NCBI GenBank assembly: GCA_009760855.2
Contig: WPIO01000090.1
Coordinates: 750,001-814,000 of the forward strand
Origin: Cristatella mucedo
Lineage: Eukaryota; Bryozoa; Phylactolaemata; Cristatellidae
Length of the DNA: 64,000 nucleotides
Direction: 5' to 3'
The position numbers were made by a program, and so were the translations under genes. The notes below the pieces were generated by a model. The model did no database searches. It was not told where the DNA came from and saw only the letters and a list, made by a program, of their open reading frames with translations. Shown one piece after another: positions 21,696-63,862 of this stretch. How positions within the stretch are numbered: the stretch's first letter is position 1; every line of letters begins with the position of its first letter.

Positions 21696-22983
21696 TGCAG
21701 ATTCACAGACGGGGAAGCATTATCCTAATGGTACAATGCAGATAAAATTTGAAATTGCCGAAGTTACTGATTAAATACAGATTACGGCTTCGGAAAATTG
21801 AGGAAATTATCAAGCAGGGCGTCGAAATCAACTGGTTTGAGTCAGAAAGTCGTAAACCGACATATTTGGCTGAACGAGCCGAAAGATGGGATGCCCCCAC
21901 AGTTTAGTGAAGAGCCTTCGAGTCTACATAGGTTTTTTGGTCTACCTTTACAAGAGTCGCTTCCGAGGCTTCCGCTTGTCGTCCCGAATAGTTTCCAAGG
22001 GAGTTGTTTTCTTCAAAAAACCGTACTATAGACGACAGCTAGAGCTCATTGGGCTGGAGCGCTAGCAAAACCATCTCGCCAAAATGAAATCGCAGCATAC
22101 CTCGCCAAATCCAACTCTGAATTGATGTTCTTCGACAGAGATCCTCCTTTTTAGCTGTTCTCTCTGTATGGCGAGGAAAGAGCTTTGCAAGGGTGTTTAA
22201 CTTAATTGAGTTCCACTTGCTGCTGCTAGCTGAGCTTACACAGGTGGCTTCTTTGCAGCAGTAGTTGGACATGCATTTTCGAGATTTTCGCTCACATTAC
22301 TTCAGGCGAGTCAAAGTGTTCTTACATCGTCCAGCTTGAGTCGGATTGGGTTTTAAGTGCCTCTATGTTGATGATCCAGTGTAATTCGCATAAATGCGGA
22401 TGGCTAGTCTCTGCCGTACGTGAATCGGAATGGTCAGTGCATGCAACCACTGATGGAGCCATGGCTGCCGAAGCCCGCTTCACGTCTGTAAGCTAGGGCT
22501 GCTTTACTGGTGCCAGGAGCCAACCGTGGCTTCACAGTAATTTTTGGCCAGCCTCGTCAAATTTGGAGCGAATAAATATGCAGTCTGTATAACTATAGTA
22601 GTAAGCAAAGGCTTTTGAATTAAATTTAGCCACCGAGTGAACTAAGACGGTGGTTTTGGATCGTGACTTCTTCCATCAGATTTTGTTAGCCGAACTACTG
22701 ACATAGTCAACTGCATCTAGTATTTTAATCGGCCAACAAAGTTTCTTCTCTCTGTAAGCCACCGCTTAAATGAAGTTATGAAGATAACTTTCTATTGAGT
22801 ATCCAAGCTGCCAGTGCCAAGTACCCAGGGTGCAACGACACAGCCAAGGCTCTGCTTAATATTCAAAGTTCTTCTAAAGCACTGCTAAATAACAGATCCG
22901 CAGTCGAAAAAAAAAGTTTTCCAATATCCGCCATACCCTTAACCCCTCTCAGGTTAGCTCCTAACCTAGCAATCCTTATGAAG
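21696..22983. other. No recognisable feature
   Basis: About 1.3 kb, slightly more GC-rich than its surroundings, with short frames on both strands (plus 21,798-22,031, 77 codons; minus 22,039-22,272, 77 codons). No domain, repeat or element end recognised. Confidence 0.45.
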
Positions 22984-22991
22984 ATCTAGAC

Positions 22992-23178
22992 CGGGTGTTC
23001 TCAACCAGAGGGTGGCGACCCTTTTAGGGATTGAACAACCCTTTCACAGTAATAGCCTAAGACCATTTGAAGACAAGCATTTTCCAATTTTGCACACAAT
23101 AGTTTCGTGATTGGGGGTAGCCACAATATAAAGAAATATATTACGGGGTCAAGGCATTGAAATGGCTGAGAACCAATG
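22992..23178 (+). mobile_element. SPIN-like hAT MITE (187 bp) with 8-bp TSD
   Basis: A non-autonomous DNA transposon with no coding capacity. The left end CGGGTGTTCTCAACC and the complement of the right end CATTGGTTCTCAGCC form imperfect 15-bp terminal inverted repeats around GGTTCTCAACC. Perfect 8-bp direct repeats ATCTAGAC flank it (22,984-22,991 and 23,179-23,186) and fit the hAT consensus nTnnnnAn. Internal motifs 'gtggcgaccctttt', 'aacaaccctttcacag', 'gcctaagaccattt', 'gattgggggtagccacaa' and 'ggggtcaaggcattg' are those I associate with short SPIN-type elements. The transposase would have to come in trans. Family membership is from memory of the SPIN ends. The TSD and TIRs are directly visible. 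Confidence 0.88.
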
Positions 23179-23279
23179 ATCTAGACGGTCAATTCAATTC
23201 GAAGGTTATTGACTGCTAAGATAGACAAAGGCAGCTGGACCGTTGATCAGATAGGCGCATAAATAGCTGATGTATCCTG

Positions 23280-23590
23280 GAGTCTAGTTCATCAATTCCA
23301 TGTGTCACCTAAATGGCTACATTAAAGAGGGTCACTAGTTACCTCTTCTTGAAGTTCATACCATCATAAAAAAGGCAACTAGTCCTTTGGACCTTATTTA
23401 CAAGGACCTGCTTCTACGATGCCTAGATTGGCCACGGCCATGTAGGAATCGCCCCTTAAATGTGTCATTAGCTTCAAGTCAGATACCAGAACTAAAAATA
23501 AGGCTTTAGTCATGATGCGAATCTAGAAAGCAACAGAGGATCAATATAACTTGAGCAACTTTCGCCCTGACTCCCTTCTGGAGTCATCTC
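23280..23590 (+). mobile_element. L2-A LINE remnant, RT finger region
   Basis: Plus-strand sequence 'ggcaactagtcctttggacc' and 'ctgcttctacgatgcctag' correspond to the KSALDPIP and LLLRC codons. They are followed by a decayed PFKKAVV equivalent and 'gatcaatataacttgagcaa' (DQENLSN). Only this piece of the RT is identifiable. Confidence 0.65.
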
Positions 23591-34914: not shown

Positions 34915-35905
34915 TTAATAATAATAATAATAGTAATTCTCTTTATAAAGCGCCCTCAGAGAACTTAATCTCTCTCTAGGCGCTTTAAATTTGCTGTAAA
35001 GTGAAATGCAATTGAATGGTAAGTAAAATCATGCTTTAAAAACAAACGAAATGAATAACACGGTTAGTGGCAGCATGCACTGTGTCAGCACGCATAAGCA
35101 CATCAAGGACGAATCACGGGGACCCACTAAATGCTGTCCTAAATAGGTGTGTTTTAGGTTTCTTTTAAATGTGGTCAGGTCAGGGGATGTTCTGACGCAG
35201 GTCGGGGGGTAGTTCCAAGCTTTGGGAGCATATGAACTTAATGCAAGGTCTCCAAAGGATTCAAGGTTTGTACAAGGTATTTCTAGACTGTTGGATTCCG
35301 AAAAGCGGGTGATACGATGCTTGGCCTGATGGGGTAGTATATCTGACAAATTGGCTGGAGCCATAGAATGAAGGGACCTAAAAGTGAGCGACAAAACCTT
35401 GAAGTCAATCCGTTGCTTGACTGGTAGCCAGTTCAGGTTGGCGAGAAGGGGAGTAATGTGGCAACCACAAAGCTCACGGCAGACAGGTCGAGCAGCCGAG
35501 TTTTCCACCACCTGCAATCGCCTGATCGCACATGCTGGTAGGCCAGTAAGCAGTGAGTTGCAGAAGTCGAGACGGGATGTCCCGAATGCATGGACCAACT
35601 TGGACGTGGTATCCTTATCTAAACAAGCCCGAATTTTAGCAATGTTATGAAGCTGAAAATGGGTGTATTTGACTGTGGAGCTGCTATGGTCATCTAACGA
35701 GAGGTAGCTTTGGAATATGACACCTAGATTCCGAGCTGATTCAACTGGAGATATGCTGTCAGAGCCAATTGTGAGATTCAGCCTTTCCAATCTCTGGATC
35801 ACACTGGGTTTACCCATAGCTAGTAAGTTAGTTTTATCATCGTTAAGTTTTAGAAAATTTGCTGCCATCCACGTACGGATGTCATCAATGCATGCAAGTA
35901 CCTTT
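34915..35905 (-). mobile_element. L2-A LINE, 5'-truncated, with open C-terminal frame
   Basis: Minus-strand copy with clean (ATA)n, a near-consensus stem-loop tail and full 3' UTR. The frame 35,029-35,868 is open for 279 codons and encodes the RT C-terminal third: FLKLNDDKTNLLAMGKPS, ESARNLGVIFQSYLSLDD, SKLVHAFGTSRLDFCNSLL, LNWLPVKQRIDFKVLSLT and the GDLALSSYAPKAWN block. Truncation falls just downstream of motif C, so no catalytic residue is encoded and the fragment cannot act on its own. The long open frame suggests a relatively recent insertion. Its stop lies beyond the usual GSL end, because a base change reads through into the 3' UTR. Confidence 0.93.
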
Positions 35906-36171
35906 AGCTAGATACATCCACTAGTGTGGTGACTCCATGGGATAATAATAAATAGCTTCAGGAAAGGCAGTTCTGCTGTTGGGTTTTATCTTTTCCCTCA
36001 ATTGTATGATGTTGGAACATTTTAGCTGGAGCCCAACCTTGAGGTACAAGGTTTGAGCTAAGCTTATTTAAGCTGTATCTTTTTCGAAAGGTAAATTCGC
36101 AAGATTAATACTGTTCTGCTCCATTTACGGCTGTACCTTTCCGAACCGTGTTCATCTGTATGACATTCTTC
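35906..36171. other. No recognisable feature
   Basis: Flank of the L2-A 5' truncation point. Nothing recognised. Confidence 0.4.
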
Positions 36172-40600: not shown

Positions 40601-40824
40601 GGTGGAATCCTGCAGCAATGCATCGCTTAGGGGAAACTCGAAGGGCTGTTAATGGCAGTTTTTTACGTCTACAGCTATTAAAATGTAGCTTTTGAGTCGA
40701 TTAATAGCATTTGGTTAATAATGGCTCCTAAAGGAAGGTGATCAAATGTCAGGTAATTCATGTTATATATTTCCGTCTGGAACTAAAAAAATCACAAAGT
40801 CTATTTAGGTGTTAACCAGAAGCG

Positions 40825-41895
40825 TTTTCCATCCTTCGAGCACGTCAAATTCTCTCAACTCACTTGCTGCATGCATTGATGACATCCGATCATGGATAGC
40901 AGCAAATTTTCTAAAACTAAACGATGATAAAACTAACTTACTAGTTATGGGCAAACCTAGTGTTATTCAGATATTGGAAAGGCTGACTTTCAAAATTGGC
41001 TCTGCCAGCATATCTCCAGTTGCATCAGCTCGAAATCTAGGTGTCATATTCCAAAGCGACCTCTCGTTAGACGACCACATCAGCTCCACAGTCAAATCAG
41101 CCTATTTTCAGCTTCATAACATTGCTAAAATTAGGGCTTGTTTAGATAAGGATACCACGTCCAAGTTGGTCCATGCATTCGTGACATCTCGTCTCGACTT
41201 CTGCAACTCACTGCTTACTGGCCTACCAGCATGTGCGATCAGGCGATTGCAGCTGGTGCAAAACTCTGCAGCTAGGCTTGTCTGTCGTGAGCGTCGCAGT
41301 TGCCACATTCCTCCACTTCTCGCCGACCTGCACTGGCTACCAGTCAAGCAACGGATTGACTTCGAGGTTTTGTCGCTCACTTTTAGGTCCCTTCATTCTA
41401 TGGCTCCAGCCTATCTTTCAGATATACTACCCCATCAGGCAAAGCATCGTACCACTCGCTTTTCGGAATCCAACAGTCTAGAAATACCTCGTACAAACCT
41501 TAAATCCTTTGGAAACCGTGCATTTAGCTCGTATGCTCCCACAGCCTGGAACTTCCTCCCGACCTGCATCAGAACATCCCCTGACCTGACCACATTTAAA
41601 AGAAACTTAAAAACATACCTATTTAGGACAGCATTTAGTGGGTCCTTGTGATTCGTCCTCGATGTGCTTATGCGTGCTGACACTGTTCATGCTGCCACTA
41701 ACCACATTTGCATGCTGACCCAGTGCATGTAACCCCTAACCATGTTATTCATTTTGTTTGTTTTTCAAGCATGATTTTACTTACTATTCTATTGCGTATC
41801 ATTTTGCAGCAAATGTAAAGCGCCTAGAAAGAGATTAAGTTCTCTGAGGGCGCTTTATCAAGTGCAATATTATTATTATTATTATTATTATTATC
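40825..41895 (+). mobile_element. L2-A LINE, 5'-truncated, best 3' end in the window
   Basis: The frame 40,809-41,651 is open for 280 codons and encodes the RT C-terminal third. In order: FLKLNDDKTNLLVMGKPS, ASARNLGVIFQSDLSLDD, STVKSAYFQLHNIAKI, SRLDFCNSLLTGLPACAIRR, NSAARLVCRERRSCH, LHWLPVKQRIDFEVLSLT, SFGNRAFSSYAPTAWN and KTYLFRTAFSGSL before the stop. The 3' UTR of about 170 bases ends in the consensus stem-loop and about nine ATT units. The catalytic RT motifs lie upstream of the truncation, so this is a non-functional but young-looking insertion and a good reference for the family. Confidence 0.95.
41817..41856 (+). other. Conserved 3' stem-loop of L2-A (reference copy)
   Basis: AAAGCGCC (41,817-41,824) pairs perfectly with GGCGCTTT (41,849-41,856). 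Inside, AGAGA (41,830-41,834) can pair with TCTCT (41,841-41,845). The same two stems recur in most L2-A copies and, with compensating variation, in the SINEs. In related LINEs the 3' hairpin is the RT recognition site. That role here is inference. Confidence 0.85.
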
Positions 41896-47700: not shown

Positions 47701-47836
47701 CATAGGGCCGTTCAAGCATGGTTTTACCATTTTTCGAACATACAGTTCAACACTTTGGATCGGCAGAGCAGTTAGCCTTTTATCCTGTTAGAAGACTAAT
47801 TCTCAAAGACTGGCTAAAATAAGCTAGTATCCTCAA

Positions 47837-48104
47837 AATGAGCAATATCCTCAAATGAGCTGTGAATCACACGCGTTGCTTAAGTGGCTGCTATTTCAGG
47901 CTAGCTTTAATTGTCACCATTTTTCAACTCCCGAGCTTTTGGCAGACGAGCATAACCGACGACTTTGGTAAATGAGCGATATCCTCAAATGAGCTGTGAA
48001 TCGCATGCGTTGCTTAAGTGCCTGCTTTTTCAGGCTAGCTTTAATTGTCACCATTTTTCAACTCCCGAGCTTTTGGCAGACGAGCATAACCGACGACTTT
48101 GGTA
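47837..48104. repeat. 134-bp tandem duplication (two units)
   Basis: Units 47,837-47,970 and 47,971-48,104 differ at about half a dozen positions (for example gagcaatat against gagcgatat, and aatcacacg against aatcgcatg). Each holds 'gctagctttaattgtcacca' and 'cccgagcttttggcagacg'. No coding content recognised. Confidence 0.97.
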
Positions 48105-48146
48105 AGTCCAGAAAAGCGTCAAAGGGTGGGATTAAATACCAGCAAT

Positions 48147-53505: not shown

Positions 53506-56500
53506 ATAATAATCATAATGCACTTGATAAAGCGCCCTCAGAAAAAACTTAATTTCTCTCTAGACGCTTTACATTTGCTGCAAAGTGAAATGCAATTGAA
53601 TGGTAAGTAAAATCATGCTTGAAAAACAAACAAAATGGATACTATGGTTACGGGTAACATGCACAAGGTCAGCATGCAAATGTGGTTAGTGGCAGGATGC
53701 ACAGTGTCAGCACACATAAGCACATCAAGAACGAATCACAGGGACCTACTAAATACTGTCGTAAATAGATGTTTTTAGGTTCCTTGTAAATGTGGTCAGG
53801 TCAGGGAAATTTCTTACGCAGGGAGGGAGTTCCAGGCGGTGGGAGCATGCGAACTAAATGCACGGTCTCCAAAGGATTTAAGGTGTGTACAAGTATTTCT
53901 AGACAGCTTGAATCCAAAAAGGGTGTGGTACGTTGCTTGGCCTGATGGGGTAGTACATCTTAAAGATAGGCTGGAGCCATAGAATGAAGAGACCTAAAAG
54001 TGAGCGACAAAACCTTGAAGTCTATCCGTTGCTTGACTGGTAGCCAGTGCAGGTCGGCGAGAAGTGGAGTAATGTGGCAACTGCGACGCTCACGACAGGC
54101 TAGTCTAGCTGCCGAGTTTTGCACCAGCTGCAATCGCCTGCACGTGCTGGTAGGCCAGTAAGCAGTGAGTTGCACAAGTGAAGACGGGATGTCACGAATG
54201 CATGGACCAACTTATATGTGGTATCTTTATCTAAACAAGCCCGAATTTTAGCAATTTTATGAAGCTGAAAATAGGCGGATTTGACTGTGGAGCTGATACG
54301 GTCGTCTAACGAGAGGTCGCTGTGGAACATGACGCCTAGATTTTGAGCTGATTCAACTGGAGATATGCTGGCAGAGCCAATTATGAGAGTCAGCCTTTCC
54401 AATATGTGAATCGCACTGGGTTTGCCCATAACTAGTAAGTTAGTTTTGCCATCGTTTAGTTTTATAAAATTCGCTGCCATCCATGTGCGGATGTCATCAA
54501 TGCATGCAGGGAGTGAGTAAAGAGAATTTGCAGTGTTCGAAGTCTGGGACGGATCAAAGCAAAGGTACAAATGAGTGTCATCCGCATAGAAGTGAAAGCA
54601 TAGATTTTGCTTGGCAATCACATCGGCAAGAGGCAGAGTATAAACCGTGAAAAGAACCGGACCTAGCACTGAGCCCTGAGGTACTCCATATTTCAGAGGT
54701 ACTTCAGATGATCTTTGTCCATTCTCGTCAATACTCTGAAGTCTCCCACTGAGATAGGACCTGAACCACTTCAGAGCAGTGCCAGTGATGCCCAGGTGAG
54801 ATCAGAGGCACTGAAGAAGAACTTTGTGATAGATGGTGTCAAAAGCTGCCGAAAGATAAAGTAAAACAAGCAGAGACTCTACCCACGCCTGCATTCGTAA
54901 GTAGGTTGTTGTATACCCTAAACAATGCTGACTTTGTGGAGTAATTAGCTCAAAAGCCAGACTGGAACTTACTAGCAAGGTGTGAGTTTTCGATAAACGA
55001 GTTCAGCTAGTCCGCCACGACCCGTTCCAGTGTCTTTGATAGAAATTGTGGAAAGGAGACTCGGCGGTAGTTGCTCAAGTTTTCTTGGTCTACTGGAGCT
55101 TTCTTGAGAAGTGGCCTGACTGCAGCTTTTTTGAAAGGTGCTGGGATATGACCTGAGGCTAATGACATGTTAATGATGTTAGTTATGCATGGCAGCAGCA
55201 GAACAATGCAACGAAGGAGCAGGACAGTGGGAATTGGGTCCAGAGCACTTTTTGTCTTCTTTGATTGAGATACTAACTTTAGGACTAGATCATTAGTCAC
55301 CTGCTTAAATGCAGACATTGGGGTGCAGCTACGAACCGAGGAACAGCATTCTAGTGGGGAGGTTGTCATCCCAGGGATAGATTCCCTGATCTCGTCTATC
55401 TTCTGCACAAAGAATCGATTGTAGCGATCAGCTAGATCATCACTAGAATCATCAAATAAGGAGCTAATCTGGGAACGGTTGAGGAGATGGTTTATTGTCG
55501 ACATCAGCAATTTTAGATTGTGCATCTGTGATTTAACAATGTTTTTATAGAAGCTAGCCTTGGCCTTTGCTAGGATCGATTAGTACGACCCACATTAATC
55601 TTCATATGCCTGTAGATGGACAGTTAGTCCTGATCTTTTGTATGTTTTTTTCAAGCTTTTGCCTAGTAGACTTGACTAGTTTAATGTCTGTGGTAAACCA
55701 TAGGCCGTCTGGGCCGGAGCCCACAGTGAGCTTTGTCAGAGGTGCAAACTCGTCGAGCTTGTCAGCTAGTGTTGTGTTGTAGCTATCTATCAATGATGAC
55801 AGATCAGAGGGAGGATTGAGCAGCAGAGGTGAAGCAGATATTCTCGCACGGACTGAATCGATGTCAAGGGTCTTGAGGTTTCGTGATTCACAGGTTATTT
55901 TAGAGGATGATGTGCGCCCACACTGTTGATTGAATGAGATCTGCATGTGGTCAGATAAGCAGGATTTGGTAATAATTGGTTATGACAGAGTGAAGTTGTA
56001 TGAGAAAATCTGGTCGAATGTGTTACCCTTGATGTGGGTAGGGACATGCACATGAGCCACAAGAGACAATGAGTCAGTCAATGCACAAAATTCGGTGCTG
56101 AAAGCTTCAGATAAGTTATCAAAGTGAATGTTGAAATCACCCAAAACGAGGAAGGATCGATTTCTTGCACACATAATCTAAATGAGATCAGAGAAATCTG
56201 AGATAAAGGAGGATTTGGTACCTGGTGGGTGATAGACTACAGTCACTATCGGTAGCTTGTTTTCGGGTGAGACCAAGACAATTGATTCAAAAAACTGCTT
56301 CGAGGGTACTGGTAATGGCTTGAAGTGGAATTTCGAGTGCACGACAATAGCAACTTCACCTCTAGTTTTGATTGATCTAGGGATGTTAAGGAACGACAAA
56401 CCAGATGGAGTAGCGTCTTTAATTATATGGCAGTTTATCGATTTCAGACAAGTTTCAGTTAGGGCGAGCAGGTCAATACCATTTTCAGAAATAAGGTCGC

Positions 56501-62699: not shown

Positions 62700-63862
62700 A
62701 GAATAAGAATCATACACTCCTTAAAGAGCCCCGAGAAAACTCAATCTTTTTACATGCATTTTCCATTCGCTGCAAAGGAAACACAATTGAATGGTGAGCG
62801 AAAAAGCCATGCACGATAACAAATATGAATGACGTTGTTAGGGGTGATCTTACCTGGGTTAGCATGCAAGTGTGGTTGGTGCCAGCATGCATCAGTTAAT
62901 GCGAACATAGGCACATCAAGCATAAATCGCCGTGATAATTAAATACAGTCATATACAGGTGCTTTTAATTTTTTTTATTGTGGTCAAGCCAGGGTCGTAA
63001 TGATCCAAATTGGGAGTGAGATCCAGGCTTGTGGAGCATTTAAACTGAATGCACAATCTCCAAATGATTTGAGGTTTGTACGAGGTATTCCGAAACGGTT
63101 GGATTCCTAAAAGCGGGTGGTACGACGCTTGGCCTTGTGGGGGAGTAGATCTGATAGGCAGGCTGGAGCCTAAATATGAAGTGACCTGAAAGTGAGCTAC
63201 ACAAACTTGAAGTCGATTCCTAAAAGCGGGTGGTACGACGCTTGGCCTTGTGGGGGAGTAGATCTGATAGGCAGGCTGGAGCCTAAATATGAAGTGACCT
63301 GAAAGTGAGCTACACAAACTTGAAGTCGATCCGTTTCTTGACAAGTAGCTAGAGGAGACCGGCGAGAAGTAGTGGGATGTGGCAACTGTAAATATCAAGA
63401 CAGACAAGCCTAGCTGCTGGGTTTGCACCAGCTTTAAGTGCCTTATTGCACATGCCGGTAGGTGAGCAAGGCCGGATGTCACAAGTGTATCGACCAACTT
63501 TGATATATTATCTATATTTAAAAAACTTCGAATTTTAGCATTGGTATGTAGCTGAAAGTAGGAATGCTCTACTGTTGAACTGATCCGGTCGTCTATCAAA
63601 AGATGACTTAGGAACATGTTACCTAGATCGCTTGCGGATTTAACAGTATTTATGCCGGCTGAGCCAAATTTGAGCGTTATATTTTTAGAATTTTAAAACG
63701 AACCTGATTTCCCCACAGTAAGTAAGCTAGTCTTATCGTAATTTTATGTAAGAAAAGATTGAGCCATTATTTTGAGAACGTCATCAATACGTGCTCATTC
63801 CCTAATAAACAGGCCAAAAAACTCGAATCAGCAGAGTTGGATGATCTCAAATTCAAGGTAAA
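62700..63862 (-). mobile_element. L2-A LINE remnant, tail to downstream of motif C
   Basis: Minus-strand copy from a decayed tail ('agagccccgagaaaactcaa', 'cattttccattcgctgc') through the 3' UTR ('ggttagcatgcaagtgtgg'), GDLAL-like, HWLPV, NSAAR and STVEHSYFQLHTNAKIRS blocks, to the ACIDDI equivalent at about 63,780 and the DPSQTSNT-equivalent near 63,840. The frame 62,949-63,617 (222 codons) is open but switches between frames of the ancestral protein, and it contains an internal duplication. Confidence 0.85.
63102..63327. repeat. Perfect 113-bp tandem duplication inside L2-A
   Basis: Units 63,102-63,214 and 63,215-63,327 look identical base for base, starting 'gattcctaaaagcgggtgg' and ending 'caaacttgaagtc'. 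GAT occurs at each junction. The duplicated text covers the SNSLE to VLSLT coding segment. Confidence 0.97.

Follow-up and report, generated by a model that had tools for sequence, protein, structure and literature searches.

Transfers of SPIN (SPACE INVADERS) elements 15-46 million years ago are recorded for galago, murine rodents, opossum, tenrec and vespertilionid bats (PMC5857283). SPIN elements are also recorded in the invertebrate Rhodnius prolixus, where a report links them to horizontal transfer and names OC1, hAT1 and ExtraTerrestrial beside SPIN as horizontally transferred hAT families (PMC11614815). Similarly, a hAT element with about 1,000 copies in Biomphalaria glabrata shows significant identity to SPIN and is linked to horizontal transfer (PMC5440852). 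Here we analysed a window of 64,000 nucleotides, which is the whole stretch of DNA presented, and found in it a 187-bp element of a large family. This family resembles those of R. prolixus and B. glabrata in being a SPIN-type hAT in what appears to be a non-vertebrate, and it can be likened to OC1, hAT1 and ExtraTerrestrial by description alone, as a hAT family of likely horizontal origin. The genome is probably that of neither R. prolixus nor B. glabrata, judging by the assembly size of 572 Mb, the G+C content of about 40% in the window and the lack of a match to the mollusc haemocyanin domain, for which the control was uninformative. With tetrapod SPIN it would share the ends CAGCGGTTCTCAACC / GGTTGAGAACCACTG, internal sequence and an 8-bp target-site duplication (TSD), and a presumed internal 65-mer of tetrapod SPIN has matches of up to 94% identity in the genome. 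It differs from tetrapod SPIN in that the host looks invertebrate, in that no SPIN transposase was found among the loci scored and in that the 187-bp form does not carry the presumed SPIN-internal stretch past its first 24 nt. We consider it highly probable that the window element, now dead, is a non-autonomous hAT MITE of the SPIN type, which was inserted into a LINE and has since decayed, and whose family was likely acquired horizontally.

The element, which we assign to SPIN-type non-autonomous hAT elements (MITEs), occupies positions 22,992 to 23,178 on the + strand, as delimited by repeat pairing and family alignment. The 187 bp with inverted ends lie exactly, to the base, where the original prediction had placed them. 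ATCTAGAC directly abuts both sides of the element as a direct repeat (unstranded), at 22,984 to 22,991 on the left, where the family flank comparison also delimits it, and at 23,179 to 23,186 on the right. The perfect 8-bp, hAT-type TSD conforming to nTnnnnAn, which had likewise been proposed, is thus present. The repeat finder gives 9 bp for this repeat and not 8, because the last G of the element equals the G preceding the left TSD copy. From the end comparison and the family consensus, the left terminal inverted repeat is CGGGTGTTCTCAACC (22,992 to 23,006, + strand; consensus CAGCGGTTCTCAACC), and the right one (23,164 to 23,178, - strand) reads GGCTGAGAACCAATG on the + strand (consensus GGTTGAGAACCACTG). 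Compared over 15 positions, the two termini match at 10 in the window copy and at 14 in the family consensus. Their common motif GGTTCTCAACC is found at both ends of the element with one mismatch each (22,996 and 23,164). By itself this motif occurs at chance level in the window, which has a G+C content of about 40% (13 matches with at most two mismatches vs 12.7 expected), and this might speak for a chance arrangement of repeats without any transposon past. On the other side, we looked for inverted pairs of the motif (at most one mismatch each) that lie 100-300 bp apart and are framed in register by a perfect 8-bp repeat; the window has one such arrangement, and 300 simulated windows (first-order Markov sequences) had none. 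The family with common boundaries described below contradicts chance as well. The probability of a chance arrangement is therefore negligible. With its 8-bp TSD, short fixed inverted ends and empty site, the element is a member of the hAT superfamily.

To describe the family, the 572-Mb assembly (688 contigs) was searched with the window element. There were 527 first-look candidates, that is, unconfirmed copies, and all of the best 40 matched when scored; these 40, namely the window copy and 39 others, are the copies analysed throughout. In local alignments, 37 of the 39 others start at position 5-8 of the element and 26 of them end exactly at position 187, so that the limits of other genomic copies coincide with the ends described for the window. 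The majority consensus of the 40 copies is CAGCGGTTCTCAACC...GGTTGAGAACCACTG, with sharp boundaries and nTCTAGAn flanks, and the 39 others show 0-9 gap positions against it. A search with this consensus gave 2,336 first-look candidates, which is not a copy count; the best 40 scored at 94-96%, and another match was at 85%. The family is therefore large, and its copy number in the genome is likely in the thousands. Being short, non-coding, abundant and uniform in length (187 bp), it is a MITE family. On C676 of the genome (G000), two oppositely oriented copies, at 2,828,045-2,828,224 and 2,828,317-2,828,503, are separated by about 90 bp.

The TSD is not a peculiarity of the window copy. When the 8-base flanks of each copy were compared, at least 6 of 8 positions agreed in 32 of the 40 copies and all eight in 11. 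As a control, left and right flanks were paired at random between copies (2,000 shuffles), which retains the TCTAGA preference; this gave means of 6.8 (maximum 15) and 0.38 (maximum 4), respectively. The copies with fewer than 6 of 8 (L010, L013, L018, L020, L024, L033, L036 and L040) were counted in the total. The insertions of the family show a strong preference for nTCTAGAn targets.

With regard to the SPIN identity, the family consensus is nearly letter for letter what we take to be the non-autonomous consensus of tetrapod SPIN. We also searched the genome with a 65-mer, which is presumably a stretch internal to tetrapod SPIN. The first 24 of its positions coincide with MITE consensus sequence (22 of 24 matching), and positions 20-36 correspond to a piece of the MITE in reverse complement, which leaves positions 37-65 (29 nt) as the part independent of the MITE. 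All 33 first-look candidates for the 65-mer matched, the best with 94% over 65 of 65 positions; 31 of the 33 pass position 36, 17 reach at least position 58 and 11 reach position 65. The presence in the genome of a presumed SPIN sequence that could not be derived from the MITE supports both this presumption and the SPIN name. Membership in SPIN thus appears well supported, with the name depending on the presumed SPIN sequence and on this prediction test. A native hAT MITE family with Charlie/MER5-type ends, SPIN-like at its ends only and vertically inherited, is conceivable to the extent that GGTTCTCAACC-like ends are common to several hAT families and that this genome holds other hAT families. 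However, the likeness extends inside the element and, in the presumed SPIN-internal stretch, reaches up to 94%, with 11 of 33 matches running through the 29 independent nucleotides, and the other hAT ends seen here are different (CAGGGGTGTCCAACACG and ...GGTACAGCCCTA). We therefore regard a native family as improbable and retain the SPIN assignment. The 'SPIN-like hAT MITE' of the original prediction has been borne out in that the TSD and ends, the family, its target preference and the empty site are concordant and that the presumed SPIN-internal stretch occurs elsewhere in the genome. The SPIN sequence had no exact match in viral_contigs or genome_contigs and no match in phages or plasmids, and a literal sequence search of the literature returned no SPIN text, the motif-bearing papers listed not being on SPIN or hAT by their titles.

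The window element lies in an old LINE copy, the left part of which (22,872 to 22,991, + strand) was delimited by aligning the joined flanks to four LINE stretches and the right continuation of which (23,187 to 23,579, + strand) was recognised by the same joined-flank alignment. This LINE copy and L076 are identical in 339 of 522 alignment columns. The joined flanks of the window copy align across the junction to the four LINE stretches with scores of 238-305, while scores of the control with a shuffled right flank were at most 93. The four stretches carry GATCTAGC- once where the window has ATCTAGAC twice, flanking the element, and thus represent empty sites. In a genome-wide search with the joined flanks of the window copy, no match except the window itself ran on into the right flank, the others ending at query positions 98-130 (junction at 120); it took the finer alignment to the four LINE stretches to cross the junction. 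Within the sequence compared, the joined flanks of 9 of the 40 copies (L015, L027, L032, L034, L035, L041, L042, L045 and L046) span a similar stretch elsewhere, and four of the nine were read at the junction. The junctions of L015, L032 and L045 align to LINE copies (window or L076) that have a single TSD-like octamer, with no gap in L015 and L045 and a gap of one base beside the junction in L032; the junction of L046 has a longer gap and its empty site is not clean.

Three of the 40 copies, namely the window copy (22,984 to 23,186), L032 and L045, share one LINE position. Since their TSD letters differ and the flanks of L032 and L045 are 79% alike over 333 columns, it seems that the LINE was hit independently at a preferred TCTAG site, and the TCTAG motif in the LINE is a possible insertion hotspot. 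LINE copies are abundant in the window (35,029-35,907, 40,809-41,651, 54,100-54,801 and others); ATT repeats were seen in several LINE tails, and of eight window ORFs that were scanned, one has a reverse transcriptase domain. The window also contains two-copy tandem duplications at 63,102-63,330 (113 bp, 100%) and 47,836-48,105 (134 bp, 96%). SPIN is best known from tetrapods and the host signs are not those of a vertebrate, which might raise the suspicion that the SPIN copies come from vertebrate contamination of the assembly. This is scarcely credible, because the copies lie inside a LINE family of which the window holds many members, because this LINE family also provides empty sites, and because the contigs that bear the copies measure up to 24.8 Mb.

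We then consider the age of the window copy. In the multiple alignment, it differs from the consensus by 42 substitutions in 187 positions without any gaps. With gaps allowed, its divergence is 19.5% vs 3.2-11.8% in the 39 others, which, being the best matches to the window copy among 527 candidates, are biased towards consensus-like, younger copies. Over all 40 copies, CpG positions are changed about three times as often as other positions (16.9% vs 5.6%), and such an excess is expected where CpG is methylated. The original prediction had left the choice between a moderately old insertion and a distinct subfamily, and of the two we favour the former. The window copy is probably an old insertion decayed by point mutation, and it is rather unlikely to represent a SPIN sub-lineage of its own that is older or diverged. 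The higher divergence of the window copy than of the 39 others would fit a sub-lineage. So would the sharing of its changes: its 30 non-CpG changes are common to other copies at 6.3% on average, the highest value of the 40 copies (mean 3.3% and maximum 6.2% in the other 39), for which the overall change rate of 6.8% is not a like-for-like comparator. On this like-for-like result we rejected the idea that the changes of the window copy are private to it. However, the 39 copies were selected from 527 candidates for their similarity to the window copy, which by itself raises the sharing, and the high value may reflect this selection. Moreover, the best genomic matches (the best 39 of 527) are at most 81% identical to the window copy and 3-12% from the consensus, and no sibling group of the window copy was found among the 40 copies scored. 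A perfect TSD is less expected next to an old, decayed element, which again would suit the sub-lineage; by a simple estimate, the chance of it beside an element with 22% substitutions is about 2-4%, a figure tempered by the fact that the window copy was noticed through its TSD.

To get insights into the host, several marker sequences were considered. The COX1 found on C688 is 68% identical to bovine COX1, with 15 TGA in the standard-code reading, and the CpG observed/expected ratio in the window is 0.65. In jawed vertebrates, a clearly higher COX1 identity and a lower CpG ratio are expected. RAG1 had no match in the genome, its control being uninformative. Similarly, a mollusc haemocyanin domain and an annelid erythrocruorin linker gave no genome match, again with uninformative controls. 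From the absence of a RAG1 match, the CpG ratio and the COX1 identity, the host genome looks invertebrate. C688 is probably the mitochondrial genome, with TGA codons in its COX1, and partial COX1 copies on C166 and C83 resemble nuclear mitochondrial insertions. An exon of CFAP47 is present and does not discriminate between host groups, and no solved structure matched an exon-like frame from L017.

High identity of non-coding sequence to the presumed tetrapod SPIN across such a distance is best explained by horizontal transfer, and the invertebrate look of the host also makes this the likely origin of the family. Horizontal transfer, which was offered as an inference at the outset, is thus better supported now, on the presumed SPIN sequence together with the appearance of the host. 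The family would most likely have entered the genome by this way and may have spread as a short, internally deleted derivative. As expected from hAT biology, a SPIN-type transposase made elsewhere would bind the GGTTCTCAACC ends in trans, and the element would be excised and pasted (cut-and-paste) into a LINE copy at a target resembling nTCTAGAn; the insertion would duplicate 8 bp at the target, and the inserted copy would then decay through point mutations. That we are dealing with an invertebrate lineage as a new SPIN host, with thousands of near-tetrapod MITEs acquired horizontally and amplified without a surviving transposase, has in our judgement an even chance of being correct. If the host is new, the SPIN transfer network would gain a further invertebrate lineage, one with a large burst of MITEs, and it would help to test the routes of transfer (parasites, prey, shared water) and the amplification of MITEs after loss of the transposase.

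With regard to an autonomous partner with a hAT transposase, for which the original prediction advised a search, hAT-type loci are present in the genome, and none of the 55 that were read for ends shows credible SPIN ends. In 20 of these hAT-type loci, taken from the best matches (L048-L067), the hAT dimerisation domain is strong; the others are 15 zinc-finger loci (L068-L082) and 20 other hAT loci (L083-L102), with five loci overlapping between the latter two sets. A SPIN transposase was not found among the genome hAT loci scored, which leaves room for a missed copy. The MITE consensus had no match beyond the 40 known copies in the window or in L009-L102 (E up to 1e-3), and the SPIN end motifs gave four stray matches with three mismatches in L068-L102, none of them credible. 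L048-L067 were set aside as the autonomous partner, since their 3' end differs and the MITE consensus does not match them; the sequence stretches compared do not extend to their 5' ends. L048-L067 are a very young hAT family, in which all 19 others are 99.0-99.9% identical to L053 and the 3' end is ...GGTACAGCCCTA. Their open frames reach 642 aa, and one is reported as 1,947 aa. Among the PF05699 matches listed, 63 of 138 score 69-78 bits and the rest at most 45.

SPIN is assigned to the TcBuster/Buster group. In a search with the TcBuster protein, the best 74 of 894 candidates showed 28-34% identity and none was above 34%, and the family that was read among them ends differently from SPIN. 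Only three of the 74 places (L077, L081 and L090) fall within the sequence compared, and no long-SPIN place (0 of 33) lies within 44 kb of the 74 scored TcBuster matches. L077 and L081, from the TcBuster-matching family, were set aside as the SPIN partner because this family ends in GGGTGTCCAACACG. A further hAT family, with pieces about 87-94% alike and a 5' end resembling CAGGGGTGTCCAACACG, is represented by L077, L079, L080 and L081, and the TcBuster matches include two of the four places, L077 and L081. In L090, a hAT fragment is accompanied by two open frames of 140-150 aa, which have no Pfam match. L083-L088, L092-L095 and L099-L102 belong to an older, degraded hAT family, with pieces about 84-91% identical to L083 over up to 2.3 kb.
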